A DNA stretch of 36,437 bases from Chloroflexota bacterium (GTDB taxonomy: Bacteria > Chloroflexota > Chloroflexia > JAMCWQ01): NCBI GenBank assembly GCA_023480825.1, contig JAMCWQ010000078.1, positions 1 to 36,437 on the forward strand, given 5' to 3'. Shown piece after piece: positions 846-8,628 of this stretch (the stretch's first letter is position 1; every line of letters begins with the position of its first letter). The notes beneath the pieces are model-generated. The model saw only the letters and a list, made by a program, of their open reading frames with translations. It made no database searches and was not told where the DNA came from. Made by a program: the position numbers and the translations under genes.

Positions 846-1844
846 TTACCTCTTTTTTTGCAACCAGCCCATCATCGATCTGAGCTTCTTCCCCACTTCT
901 TCAATTTGAGCGTTGGCGGCGTTTCTGCGCATTGCATTGAAGCTCGGCCTACCAGCCTGGTTCTCCAGTATCCAGTCTTTGGCGAAGGTGCCATCCTGAA
1001 TTGCGTCAAGCAACTTCTTCATCTCGGCGCGCACATGATCGTCGATGACTTTCGGGCCGGCAACATAGTCGCCATATTCCGCGGTGTCGCTCACCGAGTA
1101 GCGCATCAACCCCATGCCACCCTTGTATATGAGGTCTACAATGAGCTTAAGCTCGTGAAGGCACTCGAAATACGCCAACTCCGGCTGGTATCCGGCATCG
1201 ACGAGTGTCTGGAAACCGGCCTGAATGAGATGGGTTACCCCACCGCACAGGACGGCTTGCTCTCCGAATAGATCGGTCTCAGTTTCCTCGGCGAATGTCG
1301 TCTCCAATACGCCTGCTCTGGCATTCCCGGCGGCTGATGCATAGGCAAGGGCTACCTCTTTTGCCTTACCACTGACGTCCTGGTACACTGCCAGAAGAGC
1401 GGGCACACCGATTCCCTCAACGTACAAGTCCCGCATCATGTGCCCGGGGCTCTTTGGCGCCACCATGCTCACGTCGACGTTCTTAGGCGGTGTAATCTGG
1501 TTGTAATGAATGTTGAAGCCGTGAGCGAACATGAGAGTGTCGCCATCACCGAGATGGGGCGCGATAGCGGTCTCGTAGAGCATCTTCTGCACATTATCGG
1601 GCGCCAGAATCATTATGATATCGGCTTCCGCGGCGGCCTCATCCACGGTTTTCACCGTTAGCCCGTCCTTTTCCGCCTGCTCCCAGGACTTGCTGCCTTT
1701 GTACAGCCCAACCCGGATATCGAAGCCACTATCTCTCAGATTCAGCGCGTGGGCATGCCCCTGGCTGCCGTAGCCGATGATGGCAATCTTCTTACCCTTA
1801 AGTAATGAAAGATCAGCATCCGAGTCGTAGTAAACCTTTGCCAT
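846..1844 (-). CDS. ilvC: Ketol-acid reductoisomerase
   Basis: It isomerises and reduces acetolactate or acetohydroxybutyrate to the dihydroxy acids, using NADPH and Mg2+. The 332-residue product begins [19 protein letters not shown], has the dinucleotide-binding [13 protein letters not shown] at about 24-36, and has the short-class C-terminal knotted domain with [22 protein letters not shown]. The length fits class I enzymes. The start at 1844 is chosen over an in-frame ATG 36 nt upstream because GGAGGAG lies 7-8 nt before it and the family always begins near this MAKVYY. It is 44 nt downstream of ilvN and 4 nt before leuA. Confidence in function is very high. Confidence 0.97.
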
Positions 1845-1888
1845 TTGATTTCTCCTCCCAAAATTTTTGTGAAAGGGCAAGCTTTATG

Positions 1889-2455
1889 TTAATAGCTATC
1901 GCTAGTTGTCTGCGTAGCGGCAGCGTTCTTCCAATCTGACTCTTGGAAGTAAGTCGAGGCTCTTGCCGTGGCCATACTGCCCCTAATCATAGCAACGTGA
2001 CCGGTCCTGGCAACCTCTTTGATACCGAACCCCCGCAGTAGCGATACTAGAGAATCGACTTTGGCCTGGGGTCCGGTCACTTCGATTACTACGGAGTCCC
2101 TTGTGACATCCACGATATTGGCGCGGTAGATGTCGACGATTTGCATGATTTCCGATCTGGTGGAAGCCGTGGCATTCACCTTGATGAGTGCCAGCTCTCT
2201 TACCACAGACTCTTCGACGTTCACCTCGCTTACCTTTAGTACCTCAATGAGCTTGTACAATTGCTTCACCAACTGCTCTACAATGGGATCGGTGCCATGT
2301 ATGACAATGGTCATCCTCGATATTTGTGGCACGTCGGTCCGTCCGACAGTAAGGCTTTCGATGTTGAAGCCCCGTCTCCGGAACAGGCTGACCACGCGGT
2401 TGAGAACTCCTTTTCTATCCTCAACGAGAGCGACGATTGTATGGCTTCTGGTCAT
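1889..2455 (-). CDS. ilvN: Acetolactate synthase small (regulatory) subunit
   Basis: It is the regulatory partner of IlvB, stimulating catalysis and carrying valine feedback inhibition. The 188-residue protein has an N-terminal ACT domain (about residues 4-78) with the pattern DRKGVLNRVVSLFRRRGFN followed by IESLTVG. A C-terminal ferredoxin-like regulatory domain (about 85-165) contains the stretch ALIKVNA. The ATG overlaps the ilvB stop as ATGA, so the two subunits are translationally coupled. It has the usual length for IlvN/IlvH, with a slightly extended tail after the second domain that ends in TTSDSY. Confidence 0.95.
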   Translation of the reverse strand: MTRSHTIVALVEDRKGVLNRVVSLFRRRGFNIESLTVGRTDVPQISRMTIVIHGTDPIVEQLVKQLYKLIEVLKVSEVNVEESVVRELALIKVNATASTRSEIMQIVDIYRANIVDVTRDSVVIEVTGPQAKVDSLVSLLRGFGIKEVARTGHVAMIRGSMATARASTYFQESDWKNAAATQTTSDSY

Positions 2456-4167
2456 TCGTCTTCCTCTTCAAACAGGCTGTCTTCTATAGTCGCTCCAGGC
2501 GGAATCATTGGGAAGACATTAGCCTCGGGCGGAATAACGAACTCGGCAATGACGGCTCCCGGCGTGCGGGCGACCTTCTCCAAGGTGCTTGCCACGTCTT
2601 CAGCCTTCTCCACCCGATAAGCTGGGATGCCATATGCTTCCGCCAGCTTGACGTAGTCCGGGCCGGTAATCTTCGTCTGCGAATAGCGGGAGTGATAGAA
2701 AAGCTCCTGCCATTGGCGCACCATCCCAAGGTAGCCATTGTTCAAGATAATTATCTTCAACTCCAGCTTTTCCTGAGCGATGGTTGAGAGTTCCTGCAAG
2801 TTCATTTGGAAACCGCCGTCCCCGCTTATCACCCATACGTCCTCGTCCGGGCAGCCAATTTTCACGCCGATGGCTGCAGGTAGACCGAAGCCCATCGTCC
2901 CCAGCCCACCAGAAGAGATGAAGCTGTTCGGCCTCGTGTAGCAATAGTTCTTGGCAGCCCACATTTGATTCTGGCCGACATCCGTGACGATCATGGCCTG
3001 TCCTTTGGTCACATCTCTGAGAGCTGTCATCACTCCCTCAGCAGTCGGCGACCCATTCAGAATCTGGCCGTTTCTTGGTATCGTCTTCCAGGTCTCAATC
3101 TCGGCCACCCAATCACTACGGTCCGCCGGTGATATTTCATTGATGAGCACCGAGAGTGTGTTCTTCACATCGCCAACTATCGGGATATTCACGCGCACGT
3201 TCTTGCCGATTTCGGCCGGATCAACATCCACGTGGATGATTTGGGCATTGGGAGCGAAAGCCGACACCTTTCCTGTTGCCCGGTCGTCATAGCGCATCCC
3301 CAGAGCCAGCAGCACATCGGCCTCGCTGATAGCCCGGTTGGCGCTGAGCTCACCATGCATACCGAGCATGCCGAGAGAGAGATCATGCGTCTCTGGAAAC
3401 GCTCCGATACCGAGTAGCGTAGTGGCAACCGGAATGTGGGCAGTCTCAGCCAGTTTCAGAAGCTGCTCGCTTGCTCCGCTAATTATGACACCTCTTCCCG
3501 CAACGATCACCGGCTTGCGAGCGCCGTTGATCATTTGGGCAGCCCGCCGGATCTGAGCCCGGTGGCCAAAGAGCGTAGGCCTGTACCCCAAAAGCTTCAA
3601 AGGCTCTACGGGGTCCCAGATGCTGTGATCCGTAAGCACATTCTTTGGCAAATCCACCAACACGGGACCTGGCCTTCCGGTGCCGGCGATGTGAAATGCC
3701 TCTTTCATCACCCTGCCCACCTCGTGAACACTCTCCACCAGGTAGTTGTGTTTTGTAATGGGCAGCGTTATGCCGGTTATGTCAATCTCTTGGAAGGCAT
3801 CCTTTCCGATGTAAGATGTGGGAACTTGAGCGGTAATAATCACCATCGGAGAGGAGTCCAGAAACGCGGTTGCGATCCCGGTGACGAGGTTAGTTGCCCC
3901 AGGCCCGGAAGTGGCAACACACACACCAGGTCTACCCGTAGCCCGGCCGAAGCCATCGGCGGCATGAGCAGCAGCCTGCTCGTGCCGCACCAGCACATGC
4001 CGGAATGGGTATTCAAGCAGCACGTCATAGAAGGGAATCGCCGCCCCGCCGGGGATGCCGAACAGCACATCGACGCCAGCTCTCAGTAGCGATTCGCACA
4101 CTATCTGGGATCCAGATAGCCTCGTCCCCGCCTTCTCGCCGCCGACTTCCGAAACTCTAGATGTCAC
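2452..4167 (-). CDS. ilvB: Acetolactate synthase large (catalytic) subunit
   Basis: It is a thiamine diphosphate enzyme that condenses two pyruvates, or pyruvate and 2-oxobutyrate, in the first shared step of valine, leucine and isoleucine synthesis. The 571-residue product has the catalytic Glu63 in [13 protein letters not shown], the FAD-binding central domain, and the TPP-Mg motif GDGGFQMN at about 449-456. [12 protein letters not shown] at about 476-487 is typical of acetolactate synthases rather than pyruvate oxidases. The start codon is GTG at 4167 and overlaps the ilvD stop as GTGA. The catalytic core begins about 19 residues in. It works as a complex with the ilvN product. Confidence 0.96.
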
Positions 4168-5831
4168 TTATACACCGCTCCTGTGCTAGCCGAAGTTACG
4201 GCCTCTGCGTACCGGCGAAGGTAGCCACTGGAAATCTTGGGTTGGAAAGCCTGCAGGCTCGACAGCCTGCGAGTTATTTCTGCTTCATCCAATTGCACAT
4301 CCAGCCGGCAGCCGGGAACATCGATCTTTACGGTATCACCCTCCTGAAGCGCAGCAATCGGCCCGCGGGCGGCCGCTTCTGGAGAGACATGGCCGATGGC
4401 GGCGCCACGAGATGCTCCGGAAAACCGGCCATCGGTGATAAGAGCCACCTTGTCGTCCAGTCTCATCCCAGTAAGCAGGGAGGTAGGGCTGAGCATCTCT
4501 CGCATTCCCGGCCCACCCTTGGGGCCTTCATAGCGAATGACTACTACATCGCCCGGGTGGATCTCGCCACCAACTATTGCAGCGGTGGCTGCCTCTTCTG
4601 AGTCAAACACTCGCGCTGGGCCGCTGTGCTGAAACATCTCCGGCGCCATTGCCCCGCTCTTAACAACGGCACCATCGGGCGCCAAGTTGCCAAACAGCAC
4701 GGTGAGCCCGCCATGTGGCGAATACGGTTGTGCAAAAGGCCGTATTACGGAATGATCAAGCACCACGGCATCGGCGGCGACCTCCGCTACCGTCCGTCCC
4801 TCCACGGTGATAGCTTCCTCATCGAGGAGAGACCGGACCTCCTTCATCACTGCGGGTATACCGCCGGCTCTGTCAAGGTCCTCGATGTGATGGCTACCGG
4901 ATGGGCTGATTTTGCAGAGATGCGGCGTGCGCTCCCCGATACCATTGATGGCCTTCAATGGAAATTCCACCCCAGCCTCGTGCGCCACGGCAAGAAGGTG
5001 AAGCACGGAGTTGGTCGACCCGCCAAGAGCCATGTCCACTGTGAAAGCGTTTTCGAGTGATGTGCTCGTGATGACGTCCAAGGGCTTAATGTCCTTGTTG
5101 AAAGCCCCCATCACCGCCATTCCCGCTTCCTTAGCGAGGCGGATTCTACGGGCATCGACAGCTGGGATGGTACCGTTGCCCGGCAATGCCATGCCAAGAG
5201 CCTCTGTCAGGCAGTTCATGGTATTGGCGGTGAACATCCCTGCGCAGGAACCGCAGCCAGGGCACGCTAGCTCCTCGATCTCGCGAAGCTCTGCCGCCGA
5301 GATTTCCCCCCGGATCACCTGCCCGACGCCAGAGAATACCGAGTTTAGGTCTAGAATTCTCTCGGAGTCGGGATTCGGCCGCCAACGCCCAACCAGCATC
5401 GGGCCGCCGCTCACAAACACGGATGGAATGTTCAGCCTAGCCGCGGCCATCAGCATGCCCGGGACGATCTTGTCACAGTTTGGGATGAACACGAGAGCAT
5501 CGAAGCAGTGCGCCTGCGCCACCAGTTCCACGGAATCGGCGATGACTTCACGGGAGGGCAGGACGTATTTCATTCCGTTGTGCGCCATGGCTATCCCATC
5601 ACAAATACCAATGGTGTTGCACTCGAATGGCGTGCCGCCGGCCATGTACACACCAGCCTTCACGGCGTCCGCGATCTCGCGTAGGTGCTTGTGCCCTGGT
5701 ATGATCTCTGTAAAGGAATTCACAACGCCAACGAAGGGACGCTCTATTTCCTTGTCCGTTCTCCCGAGAGCCCGTAGAAGGCTCCGGTGCGGTGCTCTTT
5801 CAACTCCGCTCTTCACTGTATCACTTCTCAC
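4164..5831 (-). CDS. ilvD: Dihydroxy-acid dehydratase
   Basis: It dehydrates the dihydroxy acids made by IlvC to the branched-chain 2-oxo acids. The 555-residue product has NCDKIVPGM (Cys109) and CPGCGSC (about 180-186), which hold Fe-S ligand cysteines, and the family stretch [18 protein letters not shown]. An in-frame ATG 45 nt upstream would add [18 protein letters not shown] at 5831 is preferred because AAGGAGAG lies 6 nt before it and the family starts as (M)[15 protein letters not shown]. It is the first gene of the ilv operon, directly behind the T-box leader, and it overlaps ilvB by 4 nt. Confidence 0.95.
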
Positions 5832-5888
5832 TGCTCTCTCCTTCAACCTCAGTTGTCTCCGTGGCCCAACTGCCATTTACCAAAAGGA

Positions 5889-5962
5889 TAAAAAGAAAGG
5901 GTGGACCTCGAGGGCGGACTCCAAGTCCGCGGTACCACCCCAATTGGCTCAGGCTGCGCCCA
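5889..5962 (-). promoter_or_regulatory. Second T-box antiterminator/terminator module
   Basis: About 35 nt after the first U-tract a second T-box sequence, GGGGTGGTACCGCG, occurs at 5941-5928. CCAA (before) and CTTGG (after) can pair around it as an antiterminator. In the alternative fold GGGTGG pairs with CCACCC (6 bp, then ACC/GGT), with a nested hairpin GCGGACT-TGG-AGTCCGC. It is followed by TTTCTTTTT, which makes a plausible terminator. No second Stem I fits in the 35 nt available, so this module must share the single upstream Stem I or act on its own. Confidence 0.75.
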
Positions 5963-5975
5963 ACAAAGCAGTAAC

Positions 5976-6003
5976 AAAAAGTCCCGCCCCGGAAGGGACG
6001 AGA
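5976..6003 (-). terminator. First T-box terminator
   Basis: Downstream of the first T-box the RNA reads CGTCCCTTCCGGGGCGGGAC followed by TTTTT. It forms a GTCCC/GGGAC-based stem and a U-tract. It competes with the antiterminator formed by AACAAGGGTGGTACC and GGGTTTGTT, where the ACAA/TTGT and ACC/GGT helices flank the TGGT bulge. Confidence 0.85.
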
Positions 6004-6239
6004 CAAACCCGCGGTACCACCCTTGTTAGTGCGCGAAACGCCACACCCACTTGAGACGATTAACGCTCGTCACTCGGACCGGCCCTACTTCCGTAAACGG
6101 GCAATATTCGGACCGCCAGCTCCTGGGCGAGTTCGAACGGCACATGCTGTCAAGTCACACCGGCCCTTGACTCTCTGAAAGCTGGCTGCCCTTCTACTGC
6201 TCCCAATCACAGCCTTTGCCTATCTCAACCGTGCCCCAG

Positions 6240-6268
6240 ATGTTACCACAACCACTAATGGATGTCAA
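6240..6268 (-). promoter_or_regulatory. Promoter of the ilv operon
   Basis: TTGACA (6268-6263), a 17-nt spacer and TAACAT (6245-6240) form a near-consensus sigma-70-type promoter. Transcription would start near 6233, just before the T-box Stem I. The -35 and most of the spacer lie inside the last codons and stop of the upstream oxidoreductase gamma gene. Confidence 0.8.
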
Positions 6269-6827
6269 CCTTATTAGATTGTCCTCTCGATCCAACGGTC
6301 ATCTCGTAGCCGCGCCGGAAAGCGCTGGCATTCACGTCCACAAGGCTGGCCTTACGGTCGCCGAGCATTTTGATTAGAGAGGAAAGCACCGCTTCTGAGG
6401 ACACAACCCCTGTGGCACCAACGTAGGCTCCCAAGGCCACCATATTGGACACTCGAACGTTCCCCAGATCCTGGGCGACTCCGCTGGCCGGCACAGCGTA
6501 AGCCCGGAGATCGTGGCGCTGAATATCTCTCTCGATGAGACTGCTATTTGCCACTAGAACGCCATCCGGCACCACTTTTGGCTCGAATTTGTCGAGCGAG
6601 GGCCAGTTCATGGCGATAAGGCTCTTGGGCCTGGGCACAATGGGGGACCAGATTTTGTCGGTAGAAATGATGGAGATACAGTTGGCAGTCCCACCGCGCA
6701 TCTCCGGGCCATAGGAAGGAAGCCAAAGGACTTCCAGTCCCTCCTTGAGTCCGGCGTAGGCAAGCAACTGCCCGATGAAGAGAACCCCCTGTCCGCCAAA
6801 GCCTGCTATCAAAACCTGTTCCAGCAC
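6255..6827 (-). CDS. 2-oxoacid:ferredoxin oxidoreductase, gamma subunit
   Basis: It is the gamma domain of a multi-subunit 2-oxoacid:ferredoxin oxidoreductase, which makes acyl-CoA, CO2 and reduced ferredoxin from a 2-oxo acid and CoA. The 190-residue product starts (M)LEQVLIAGFGGQGVLFIGQ. That glycine-rich opening, PSYGPEMRGGTANC at about 48-61 and NMVALGAYVG mark the POR/KOR gamma fold. The start is GTG at 6827: GGAGGAG sits 5 nt before it and it begins 2 nt after the beta stop. A longer in-frame ATG would overlap the beta gene by 106 nt. It is the last gene of a three-gene operon, and its end overlaps the ilv promoter. Confidence 0.9.
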   Translation of the reverse strand: MLEQVLIAGFGGQGVLFIGQLLAYAGLKEGLEVLWLPSYGPEMRGGTANCISIISTDKIWSPIVPRPKSLIAMNWPSLDKFEPKVVPDGVLVANSSLIERDIQRHDLRAYAVPASGVAQDLGNVRVSNMVALGAYVGATGVVSSEAVLSSLIKMLGDRKASLVDVNASAFRRGYEMTVGSRGQSNKVDIH

Positions 6828-6829
6828 GG

Positions 6830-7588
6830 TTACTCCTCCGGAGACTTGAACTGGCCGAGTGGGAAGTATTGCTGTAGCTCCTTTTGCACCCACTCGTTGG
6901 CCTTCACCGGGTCCATCTTGAGGTTGGTTGGGCAACTGGCAAGAAACTCCACCAGAGAGAAACCTTTGCCCTCCATCTGCACCTCAAACGCCCGCTGCAC
7001 AGCTCTGCGCGCCCGATTCACGTTCGCGGCATCGAAGACACCAACTCTTGCAATGTATCCAGGCGCGGGCAGAGTGGCTAGAAGTTCGGCTACTCTTATC
7101 GGGAAACCGGCTGCCACCGGATCACGCCCATATGGCGAACTACTGGTCTTCTGCCCCAATAGAGTGGTGGGCGCCATCTGTCCCCCCGTGGCGCCATAAA
7201 TGGCGTTGTTGACGAAGAATATAGTAATCCTCTCGCCGCGGGCCGCGGAGTGAAGAGCCTCAGCCGTGCCGATAGCCGCGAGGTCACCATCTCCCTGGTA
7301 GGTGAAGATGATCCGGTCTGGCATTACCCTCCTGAGACCGGTGGCTACCGCTGGAGCACGTCCATGGGCCGCCTGCACCATGTCGTAGGTGAAATGCTTC
7401 CAGCAGCGGACCGAGCACCCTATCGATGTGACGCCCACAACTCTTTCCGATATCCCCAGAGAATCCACCACTTCAGCGACCAAGCGATTGATGATTCCAT
7501 GCGAGCAACCCGGGCAATAGGGAAAAGGCAGCGCCACCAGCGACTGCGGCCTTTCGAACAACACTCGCTCAACATTAGTCGTGCTCAT
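6830..7588 (-). CDS. 2-oxoacid:ferredoxin oxidoreductase, beta (TPP-binding) subunit
   Basis: It is the thiamine diphosphate and [4Fe-4S] subunit of the complex. The 252-residue product contains YCPGCSHG (Cys25, Cys28), SIGCS (Cys58) and SCPTNLK (Cys219), which are the expected cluster cysteines. It also has the TPP-Mg motif QGDGDLAAIG at about 98-107 and NNAIYGATGGQMAPTT, where VNN and TGGQ are typical. The stretch GCSVRCWKHF has an extra Cys62 not seen in the common GCSV pattern. Its ATG overlaps the alpha stop as ATGA. The partner subunits lie on both sides. Substrate preference (2-oxoisovalerate, 2-oxoglutarate or pyruvate) cannot be read from the sequence with certainty. Confidence 0.92.
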   Translation of the reverse strand: MSTTNVERVLFERPQSLVALPFPYCPGCSHGIINRLVAEVVDSLGISERVVGVTSIGCSVRCWKHFTYDMVQAAHGRAPAVATGLRRVMPDRIIFTYQGDGDLAAIGTAEALHSAARGERITIFFVNNAIYGATGGQMAPTTLLGQKTSSSPYGRDPVAAGFPIRVAELLATLPAPGYIARVGVFDAANVNRARRAVQRAFEVQMEGKGFSLVEFLASCPTNLKMDPVKANEWVQKELQQYFPLGQFKSPEE

Positions 7589-8628
7589 GACTTGAGGATC
7601 TCCTCTTCGACCATCTCGGGGGTAGGTATCCAGCCACCCCCCAGCCCCATACCCCTGACCGGGATACGCCCGTTCACCGCGAGCCGCACATCGTCAACCA
7701 TTTGGCCGGAGCTCATCTCCACTACCAGACAAGAGCCAGCTGTCGTCTCGATTCCGGCAAACGCTTTCGCCGGGAACGGCCACAAGCTGATCGGGCGAAT
7801 TAGCCCTGCCCGATGCCCCTTCTTTCTGAGCGACTCTATTGCTTCCGCCGATATACGCGCCGCCGTGCCATAGGCCACAACGATGGTTTCCGCATCGTCC
7901 ACCAAGTAGGACTGCCACCGCTGCTCATCCTCGCGAGCGCGAGCGTACTTCTCCACCAAGTGACAGTTCAGTTCCAGCAAGCCCTCATCGCTGATCGGCG
8001 CCGCCAGTATCAGCCGCCTATCACGGGACTCAGTTCTCGATACTGACCATTCCTTAACGGGAGGGTCCTGTGGCTGATTGCCCCATTCCAAAGGCTCCAT
8101 CATCTGCCCGAGCATTCCGTCGGCCAGTATCATGGCCGGATTACGGTATTTGTCTGCCAAGTCAAACGCCAGGATAGTCAGGTCGGCCATTTCCTGCACT
8201 GAGAAGGGCGCGAGGACTATCAGATGGTAGTCGCCATGCCCGCCACCCCGCGTTGCCTGCCAGTAATCCGATTGGGCGGGAGGAATACGCCCTAGCCCCG
8301 GCGATGCCCGGGTAACATTCACGACAAGACACGGCAATTCAGCCGCTGCAGCATACGAGATACCCTCCTGCATCAGGCTGACACCGGGGCTCGATGAAGC
8401 GGTCATAACGCGCGCCCCTGCAGCAGCAGCACCGTAGACCATGTTAATGGCAGCCACCTCGCTCTCGCTCTGCAGAAAGGTGCCGCCGATTTGCGGTAAG
8501 CGGAAAGCCAAGTACTCCAGAATCTCCGAGGAGGGAGTGATCGGGTAGCCGAAGAAATGCCGGCACCCGGCGCGAATCGCCGCCTCCGACAGCGCTTCAT
8601 TGCCCTTCATGAGGACCTTTTCGGACAT
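7585..8628 (-). CDS. vorB: 2-oxoacid:ferredoxin oxidoreductase, alpha subunit (VorB-like)
   Basis: It is the alpha subunit, covering domains I and II of the pyruvate:ferredoxin oxidoreductase fold. The 347-residue product opens MSEKVLMKGNEALSEAAIRA followed by GCRHFFGYPITPSSEI. The YPITP motif and the later ESEVAAINMVYGAAAAGAR are diagnostic. The opening matches what is usually annotated as VorB, the 2-oxoisovalerate (branched-chain) enzyme. Lying next to the valine/leucine operon fits this, although 2-oxoglutarate is not excluded. It is the first gene of the operon, with GAGG about 7 nt before the ATG. No small ferredoxin-like delta subunit is found upstream or inside the operon. Confidence 0.9.
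   Translation of the reverse strand: MSEKVLMKGNEALSEAAIRAGCRHFFGYPITPSSEILEYLAFRLPQIGGTFLQSESEVAAINMVYGAAAAGARVMTASSSPGVSLMQEGISYAAAAELPCLVVNVTRASPGLGRIPPAQSDYWQATRGGGHGDYHLIVLAPFSVQEMADLTILAFDLADKYRNPAMILADGMLGQMMEPLEWGNQPQDPPVKEWSVSRTESRDRRLILAAPISDEGLLELNCHLVEKYARAREDEQRWQSYLVDDAETIVVAYGTAARISAEAIESLRKKGHRAGLIRPISLWPFPAKAFAGIETTAGSCLVVEMSSGQMVDDVRLAVNGRIPVRGMGLGGGWIPTPEMVEEEILKS

Follow-up and report, generated by a model that had tools for sequence, protein, structure and literature searches.

A half-duplicated leucine T-box leader before a Chloroflexota ilv operon, probably one tRNA sensor with two consecutive checkpoints

T-box leaders with duplicated terminator-antiterminator elements are reportedly named as a class by Vitreschak et al. 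2008 (RNA 14:717), and the leader described here probably belongs to it. Such 'partially tandem' T-boxes are already recognised, and a 2020 review stated that their mode of action is unknown (PMC7583486). According to the same review, the discriminator of a T-box consists of an RRRxG-Stem III-AA element together with the antiterminator, and tRNA binding depends on Stem III (PMC7583486). A different arrangement occurs in the fully tandem T-boxes found, for example, in trp, ilv and thrS leaders of Bacillota, in which the entire sensor is present twice, Stem I as well (PMC12452182).

The leader analysed here lies in a window (the whole stretch of DNA under analysis) of 36,437 nucleotides from a Chloroflexota bacterium, and it resembles three kinds of known leader. 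It shares with partially tandem T-boxes one specifier stem, repeated T-box/antiterminator/terminator modules and an amino-acid gene downstream; with fully tandem T-boxes, two serial terminators in front of one operon; and with the canonical single-module Leu T-boxes of ilvB leaders from the same class (L004-L007), the CUC specifier, Stem I, Stem III, antiterminator 1 and terminator 1. However, it also differs from each of them: (i) with respect to partially tandem T-boxes, it precedes a Chloroflexota ilv operon, and a terminator that uses the T-box as its 5' arm (hereafter a T-box-arm terminator) occurs in module 2 and not in module 1, an order seen in 1 of the 83 leaders compared. (ii) Unlike fully tandem T-boxes, it has a single Stem I followed by two T-box modules 82 nt apart; a second Stem I with its own specifier, which defines the fully tandem form, is absent from the window, where the T-box family model RF00230 has one match. 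(iii) The canonical Leu T-boxes have no second module, whereas this leader does.

On the minus strand the leader extends from 6268 to about 5830 (Table 1). The RF00230 covariance model matches 6219-5991 (-) over its full length (219/219; 124.5 bits, E 2e-27, cut-off 93), once in the whole window. A reading of the sequence alone had proposed a leucine T-box leader with a single Stem I and had asked for this Rfam search; the score, above the curated cut-off, and the one CUC specifier bear the proposal out, and both T-boxes lie where that reading had placed them (6023-6010 and 5941-5928), as do all its other features. Antiterminator 1 extends to 5994, and its A1/A2 core makes 7/7 pairs with CGUCCCU. 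The leucine specifier fits the pathway encoded downstream by ilvDBNC, and the same genome encodes a tRNA-Leu(GAG) whose 3' end, ACCA, complements the UGGU in the T-box bulges of both modules. This genome is a Chloroflexota draft in 111 contigs, 51% complete, and the sole member of its family among the genomes compared.

Table 1. Features of the leader and of the operon behind it (window coordinates)
Feature	Position	Strand	Basis or details
Candidate sigma-70-type promoter, TTGACA-17-(TG)TAACAT	6240..6268	-	Consensus scan, 10/12 matches; consensus match alone
Stem I, Leu T-box	6119..6213	-	Rfam RF00230 alignment
Specifier CUC (Leu)	6129..6131	-	Rfam alignment; specifier loop GAA-CUC-G-CCC
Stem III with purine string AAGUG (6052-6048)	6029..6052	-	Rfam alignment; motif definition: PMC7583486
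Stem III 5' arm, GGUGUGG	6047-6041	-	Rfam alignment
T-box 1, AGGGTGGTACCGCG (= AGGGUGGUACCGCG)	6010..6023	-	RF00230 match
Terminator 1 (predicted)	5976..6004	-	10-bp hairpin 6004-5981, then UUUUU 5980-5976
Linker	5942..5975	-	34 nt; 3' end CUGAGCC-AAUU 5952-5942, positioned as a second Stem III 3' arm would be
T-box 2, GGGGTGGTACCGCG (= GGGGUGGUACCGCG)	5928..5941	-	Sequence; two-T-box pattern
Antiterminator 2 (predicted)	5910..5941	-	A1 GGGG/CCUC, bulge UGGUACC, A2 GCGGACU/AGUCCGC
Terminator 2 (predicted)	5890..5941	-	5' arm T-box 2; 3' arm CCACCCU 5904-5898; 9-nt U-tract 5898-5890
ilvD, dihydroxy-acid dehydratase, first regulated gene	4164..5876	-	NCBIfam PRK00911, TIGR00110, above cut-offs
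ilvB, acetolactate synthase large subunit	2452..4167	-	TIGR00118
ilvN, acetolactate synthase small subunit	1889..2455	-	PRK11895, TIGR00119
ilvC, ketol-acid reductoisomerase	846..1880	-	PRK05479, TIGR00465

Some observations concern the surroundings of the leader. The mechanically assigned ATG start of ilvD at 5876 is probably too early; a GTG at 5831-5829 is likelier, preceded by the ribosome-binding-like AAGGAGAG and opening a protein, VRSDTVKSG, that matches the beginning of the family models. Just upstream of the leader, at 6255-8628, are 2-oxoacid:ferredoxin oxidoreductase genes for VorB-like alpha, beta and gamma subunits; a connection with branched-chain 2-oxoacid metabolism is possible. 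Elsewhere in the same genome a further T-box (L002 1501-1809; G000:C42:8656-8964) precedes a tryptophan-synthase-beta-like ORF; its Stem III is enlarged and is preceded by a long insert, and no tRNA was found at this locus.

With a linker of 34 nt a second Stem I does not fit, and together with the single RF00230 match this agrees with the earlier observation that there is no space for a second specifier stem. The window has a single match to the two-T-box pattern, compared with 0/100 dinucleotide shuffles, and in both modules we predict a mutually exclusive antiterminator and terminator followed by a U-tract, with 7/7 core antiterminator pairs in each, so that the proposed pair of T-box/terminator modules is upheld. 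The constrained fold of antiterminator 2 has an energy of -13.9 kcal/mol, and its A2 is a perfect 7-bp helix. In the predicted terminator 2, GGGGUGG.ACC (5941-5931) pairs with GGU/CCACCCU (5907-5898), enclosing the retained A2, and UUUCUUUUU follows. This fold, at -25.5 kcal/mol against -16.0 when the T-box bulge is kept open, and a complementarity between T-box 2 and the 12 nt before U-tract 2 that is equalled in 30/2000 shuffles, support the suggestion of the sequence-only reading that T-box 2 itself forms the 5' arm; module 2 alone has an unremarkable fold z-score (-0.88). Since terminator 2 is much the more stable, tRNA would need to act before it forms. The same difference of 9.5 kcal/mol speaks for a rival account, which we judge rather unlikely, in which module 1 alone is regulated and module 2 would be a relic: with T-box 2 locked in the 5' arm, its terminator would act as a fixed attenuator, trimming expression whatever the state of tRNA charging.

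Comparison with relatives bears on that account in both directions. Seven double leaders were identified in Chloroflexota, before ilvD (the window and L156) or ilvB (L153, L154, L155, L157 and L158), the genes being assigned by clustering and NCBIfam; all seven have GAA-CUC-R-CC, but they were found with a pattern that requires T-box 2 and therefore do not alone show its conservation. A less circular survey of ilvB loci counted 17 that have one T-box, 4 that have two and 21 that lack any; in one of the four double loci (L212), which may be of another type, the cores are 126 nt apart and no CUC specifier is called. As regards ilvD, none of 29 other orthologous loci of the same class has a T-box up to 1500 nt upstream, bar one likely chance motif. 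Leader DNA similarity across the phylum consists of short stretches around single modules, plus a few double leaders. Conservation of T-box 2 among relatives, which had been named as decisive for the second module, is mixed: double leaders recur in the phylum, in three genera of family f52 (G251, G342, G293) and in other Chloroflexota families, whereas every T-box-bearing ilvB leader examined in the window's own class is single (L004-L007, L194). The first of these facts argues against a relic and the second in its favour; in sum, half-duplication recurs among the ilv T-boxes of Chloroflexota as a minority form. As for the modules themselves, their T-boxes are identical at 13/14 positions and their flanks at 26/56. 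Because these identities differ, and since antiterminator core pairing is complete in both, a recently decaying duplicate, offered earlier as one possible origin of module 2, is disfavoured, and a relic would likewise have to have kept T-box 2 and a perfect A2 while its flanks diverged.

Half-duplicated T-box leaders are common and widespread, not rare. By pattern scan, two T-boxes with a T-run between them occur in at least 118 stretches of the named genome collection, the matches listed including Clostridium, Paenibacillus, Alicyclobacillus, Sporomusa, Veillonella, Megasphaera, Dialister, Chloroflexi and Sumerlaeota. In the class around Pelosinus fermentans JBW45, the Negativicutes, 54 of 151 genomes carry the half-duplicated pattern, as do 7 of 400 Chloroflexota genomes and 2 of the 158 genomes of the window's class. 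The patchy spread represented by these last two counts is what recommends a neutral origin, in which unequal recombination between T-box modules would yield double and triple forms with no selected effect, and triple forms with near-identical repeats in Paenibacillus, Lysinibacillus and Priestia point the same way. Against it stand the retention of such a leader in over a third of the genomes of the Pelosinus class and the fact that modules often share little beyond the T-box and yet show, at positions 2-6 of the shared arm described below, all standard pair types, as selection predicts; we regard neutral tinkering as very improbable.

Triple forms, with three T-boxes behind one Stem I at spacings of about 65-90 nt, were seen in L043, L089, L101 and L106 and in G509:C132, G539:C1 and G548:C1. 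The linkers shown of the Paenibacillus, Lysinibacillus and Priestia triples end in UCUUCAY-AACU or a near variant and complement the single Stem III 5' arm, GUGAAGA. Two half-duplicated T-boxes (L046, L074) come from a Candidatus Sumerlaeota MAG, before ORFs resembling extracellular peptide-binding lipoproteins; these occurrences, outside the usual phyla, could reflect transfer or binning error.

T-box-arm terminators, searched for by the same procedure in 83 half-duplicated leaders, were predicted in 37 first modules and in one second module, that of the window, and never in both modules of a leader; among 46 single T-boxes there was none (0/46), in keeping with the earlier remark that this arm departs from the usual overlap. 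Such a terminator is uncommon but not unique: it usually belongs to module 1 of half-duplicated leaders, and the order is reversed in the window. First modules must be passable, and the presence of a terminator of this kind in 37 of 83 of them counts against module 2 being a relic with a fixed attenuator. In those 37 the whole T-box serves as 5' arm of terminator 1, GGGUGGNACC / GGNNCCACCC-UUUU (for instance L040, L042, L066, L073, L083 and L099). The 3' arm of such a terminator 1 could pair with T-box 2 too, so that both T-boxes may be in competition for a single anti-T-box strand.

In many half-duplicated leaders the linker measures 15-20 nt, too little for a second Stem III. These linkers end, however, in a sequence complementary to the sole Stem III 5' arm, the arm that directly follows the purine string, and then come AA and T-box 2. 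Examples are GAUGCAG/CUGCAUC-AAGC in L158, GAUGCCUUGG/CCGAGGCAUC-AACG in L076, UGAUGGCAUAA/UUAUGCCAUCA in L044, AUCCGA/UCGGAU in L083 and AUCUGA/UCAGAU in L071. Across the 83 leaders the mean score of this helix is 16.0, compared with 10.6±0.32 after exchange of linkers between gene clusters, and it begins at the end of the purine string in 48/83 leaders, against 7.4±2.4 after swapping (maximum 15 in 200 swaps). Within the same leaders the Stem III zone scores 15.9 and other upstream zones 11.1 (Wilcoxon P 6e-12), although such P values overstate independence because the leaders are mutually related. The pairs found at positions 2-6 include G-C, C-G, A-U and U-A. The effect is present in most, not all, gene clusters, and shuffles of individual leaders are weak singly (18/83 at P<=0.05), owing to the shortness of the arms. 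In 42/48 leaders arm 2 is the more stable of the two, but this count is biased, the best second helix having been chosen, and it is not counted as evidence. A test anchored on an exact RRRxG was rejected as too narrow for Negativicutes-type leaders (GAGUUG), and the unanchored swap test was used in its place. Taken together, the swap and zone comparisons strongly indicate that half-duplicated leaders as a class have two 3' arms for Stem III, the second of them likewise complementary to the single 5' arm, an arrangement of which no description was found in the literature searched, a coverage outside which Vitreschak et al. 2008 lies. In the window this pairing is weak: the Stem III 5' arm forms 6/7 pairs with CUGAGCC-AAUU (P about 0.13, -2.4 kcal/mol), in competition with a local linker hairpin of -7.2 kcal/mol, a weakness that adds to the case for a relic.

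The shared arm also bears on whether the two modules read one tRNA or two. Module 2 has no Stem I of its own, which would suit a reading by two tRNAs in turn, with a second, free uncharged tRNA ending in ACCA bound by module 2 as a general sensor that makes no specifier contact. But an antiterminator without Stem III binds tRNA poorly, and it is Stem I that decodes identity (PMC7583486); moreover, a class-wide second Stem III 3' arm ties module 2 to the existing 5' half and would be needless for a free tRNA. We therefore find a second tRNA improbable.

Stem III is also the site of another peculiarity in this genome. Upstream of leuS (the gene identified downstream of L003) is a Leu(CUC) T-box (L003 1501-1812; G000:C42:2010-2321) with a whole tRNA-Ala(GGC) gene inside its Stem III. 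The nested layout, for instance GAUGGAUAU-[tRNA]-..GUAUCCAUC-AAGC-T-box, was also seen in L271, L278/L296, L022/L293, L290, L292, L294, L295 and others; a pattern search of the class detected it in 30/158 genomes (21/78 genera), the reversed pattern giving 0. In G028 (2 contigs, 99% complete) no tRNA-Ala with a GGC anticodon was found besides the nested one, other Ala matches being UGC and CGC. The leuS leader possibly doubles as precursor of an essential tRNA; a limited literature search for a tRNA-Ala nested in a leuS T-box found nothing.

The leader in the window is in all likelihood real and functional. Because of its anatomy, we consider it probable that it is a tRNA-Leu-sensing T-box leader of ilvD-ilvB-ilvN-ilvC in which one sensor serves two consecutive transcription checkpoints. 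Uncharged tRNA-Leu(GAG) on Stem I would let the polymerase past terminator 1 and then past terminator 2; readthrough would need two consecutive 'uncharged' readings, so that leakage should be lower and the response sharper, and we infer a two-step response to uncharged tRNA-Leu. As to how one tRNA could be read twice, comparison of the leaders points to the following route for the class. The RRRxG string and the Stem III 5' strand would be common to both modules, with module 1 read first. Once U-tract 1 has been passed, terminator hairpin 1 may fold harmlessly; 3' arm 2 would then displace 3' arm 1, and T-box 2 would take the former place of T-box 1 relative to Stem I and its tRNA. In this manner strand exchange on Stem III would pass a single tRNA, bound to Stem I, from T-box 1 on to T-box 2. 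With its arm weak and the local hairpin stronger, the hand-over route is uncertain for the window itself, where the linker hairpin may stand in for shared-arm pairing. We see an even chance that half-duplicated T-boxes in general are one sensor with a movable discriminator performing kinetic double-checking, that triple forms would repeat the exchange, and that the arm in the window would be a degenerate version.

If a single Stem III 5' strand can choose between two 3' partners, the question of how partially tandem T-boxes act becomes directly testable. The half-duplicated layout may represent a simple RNA route to a low-leak amino-acid switch that takes two readings.
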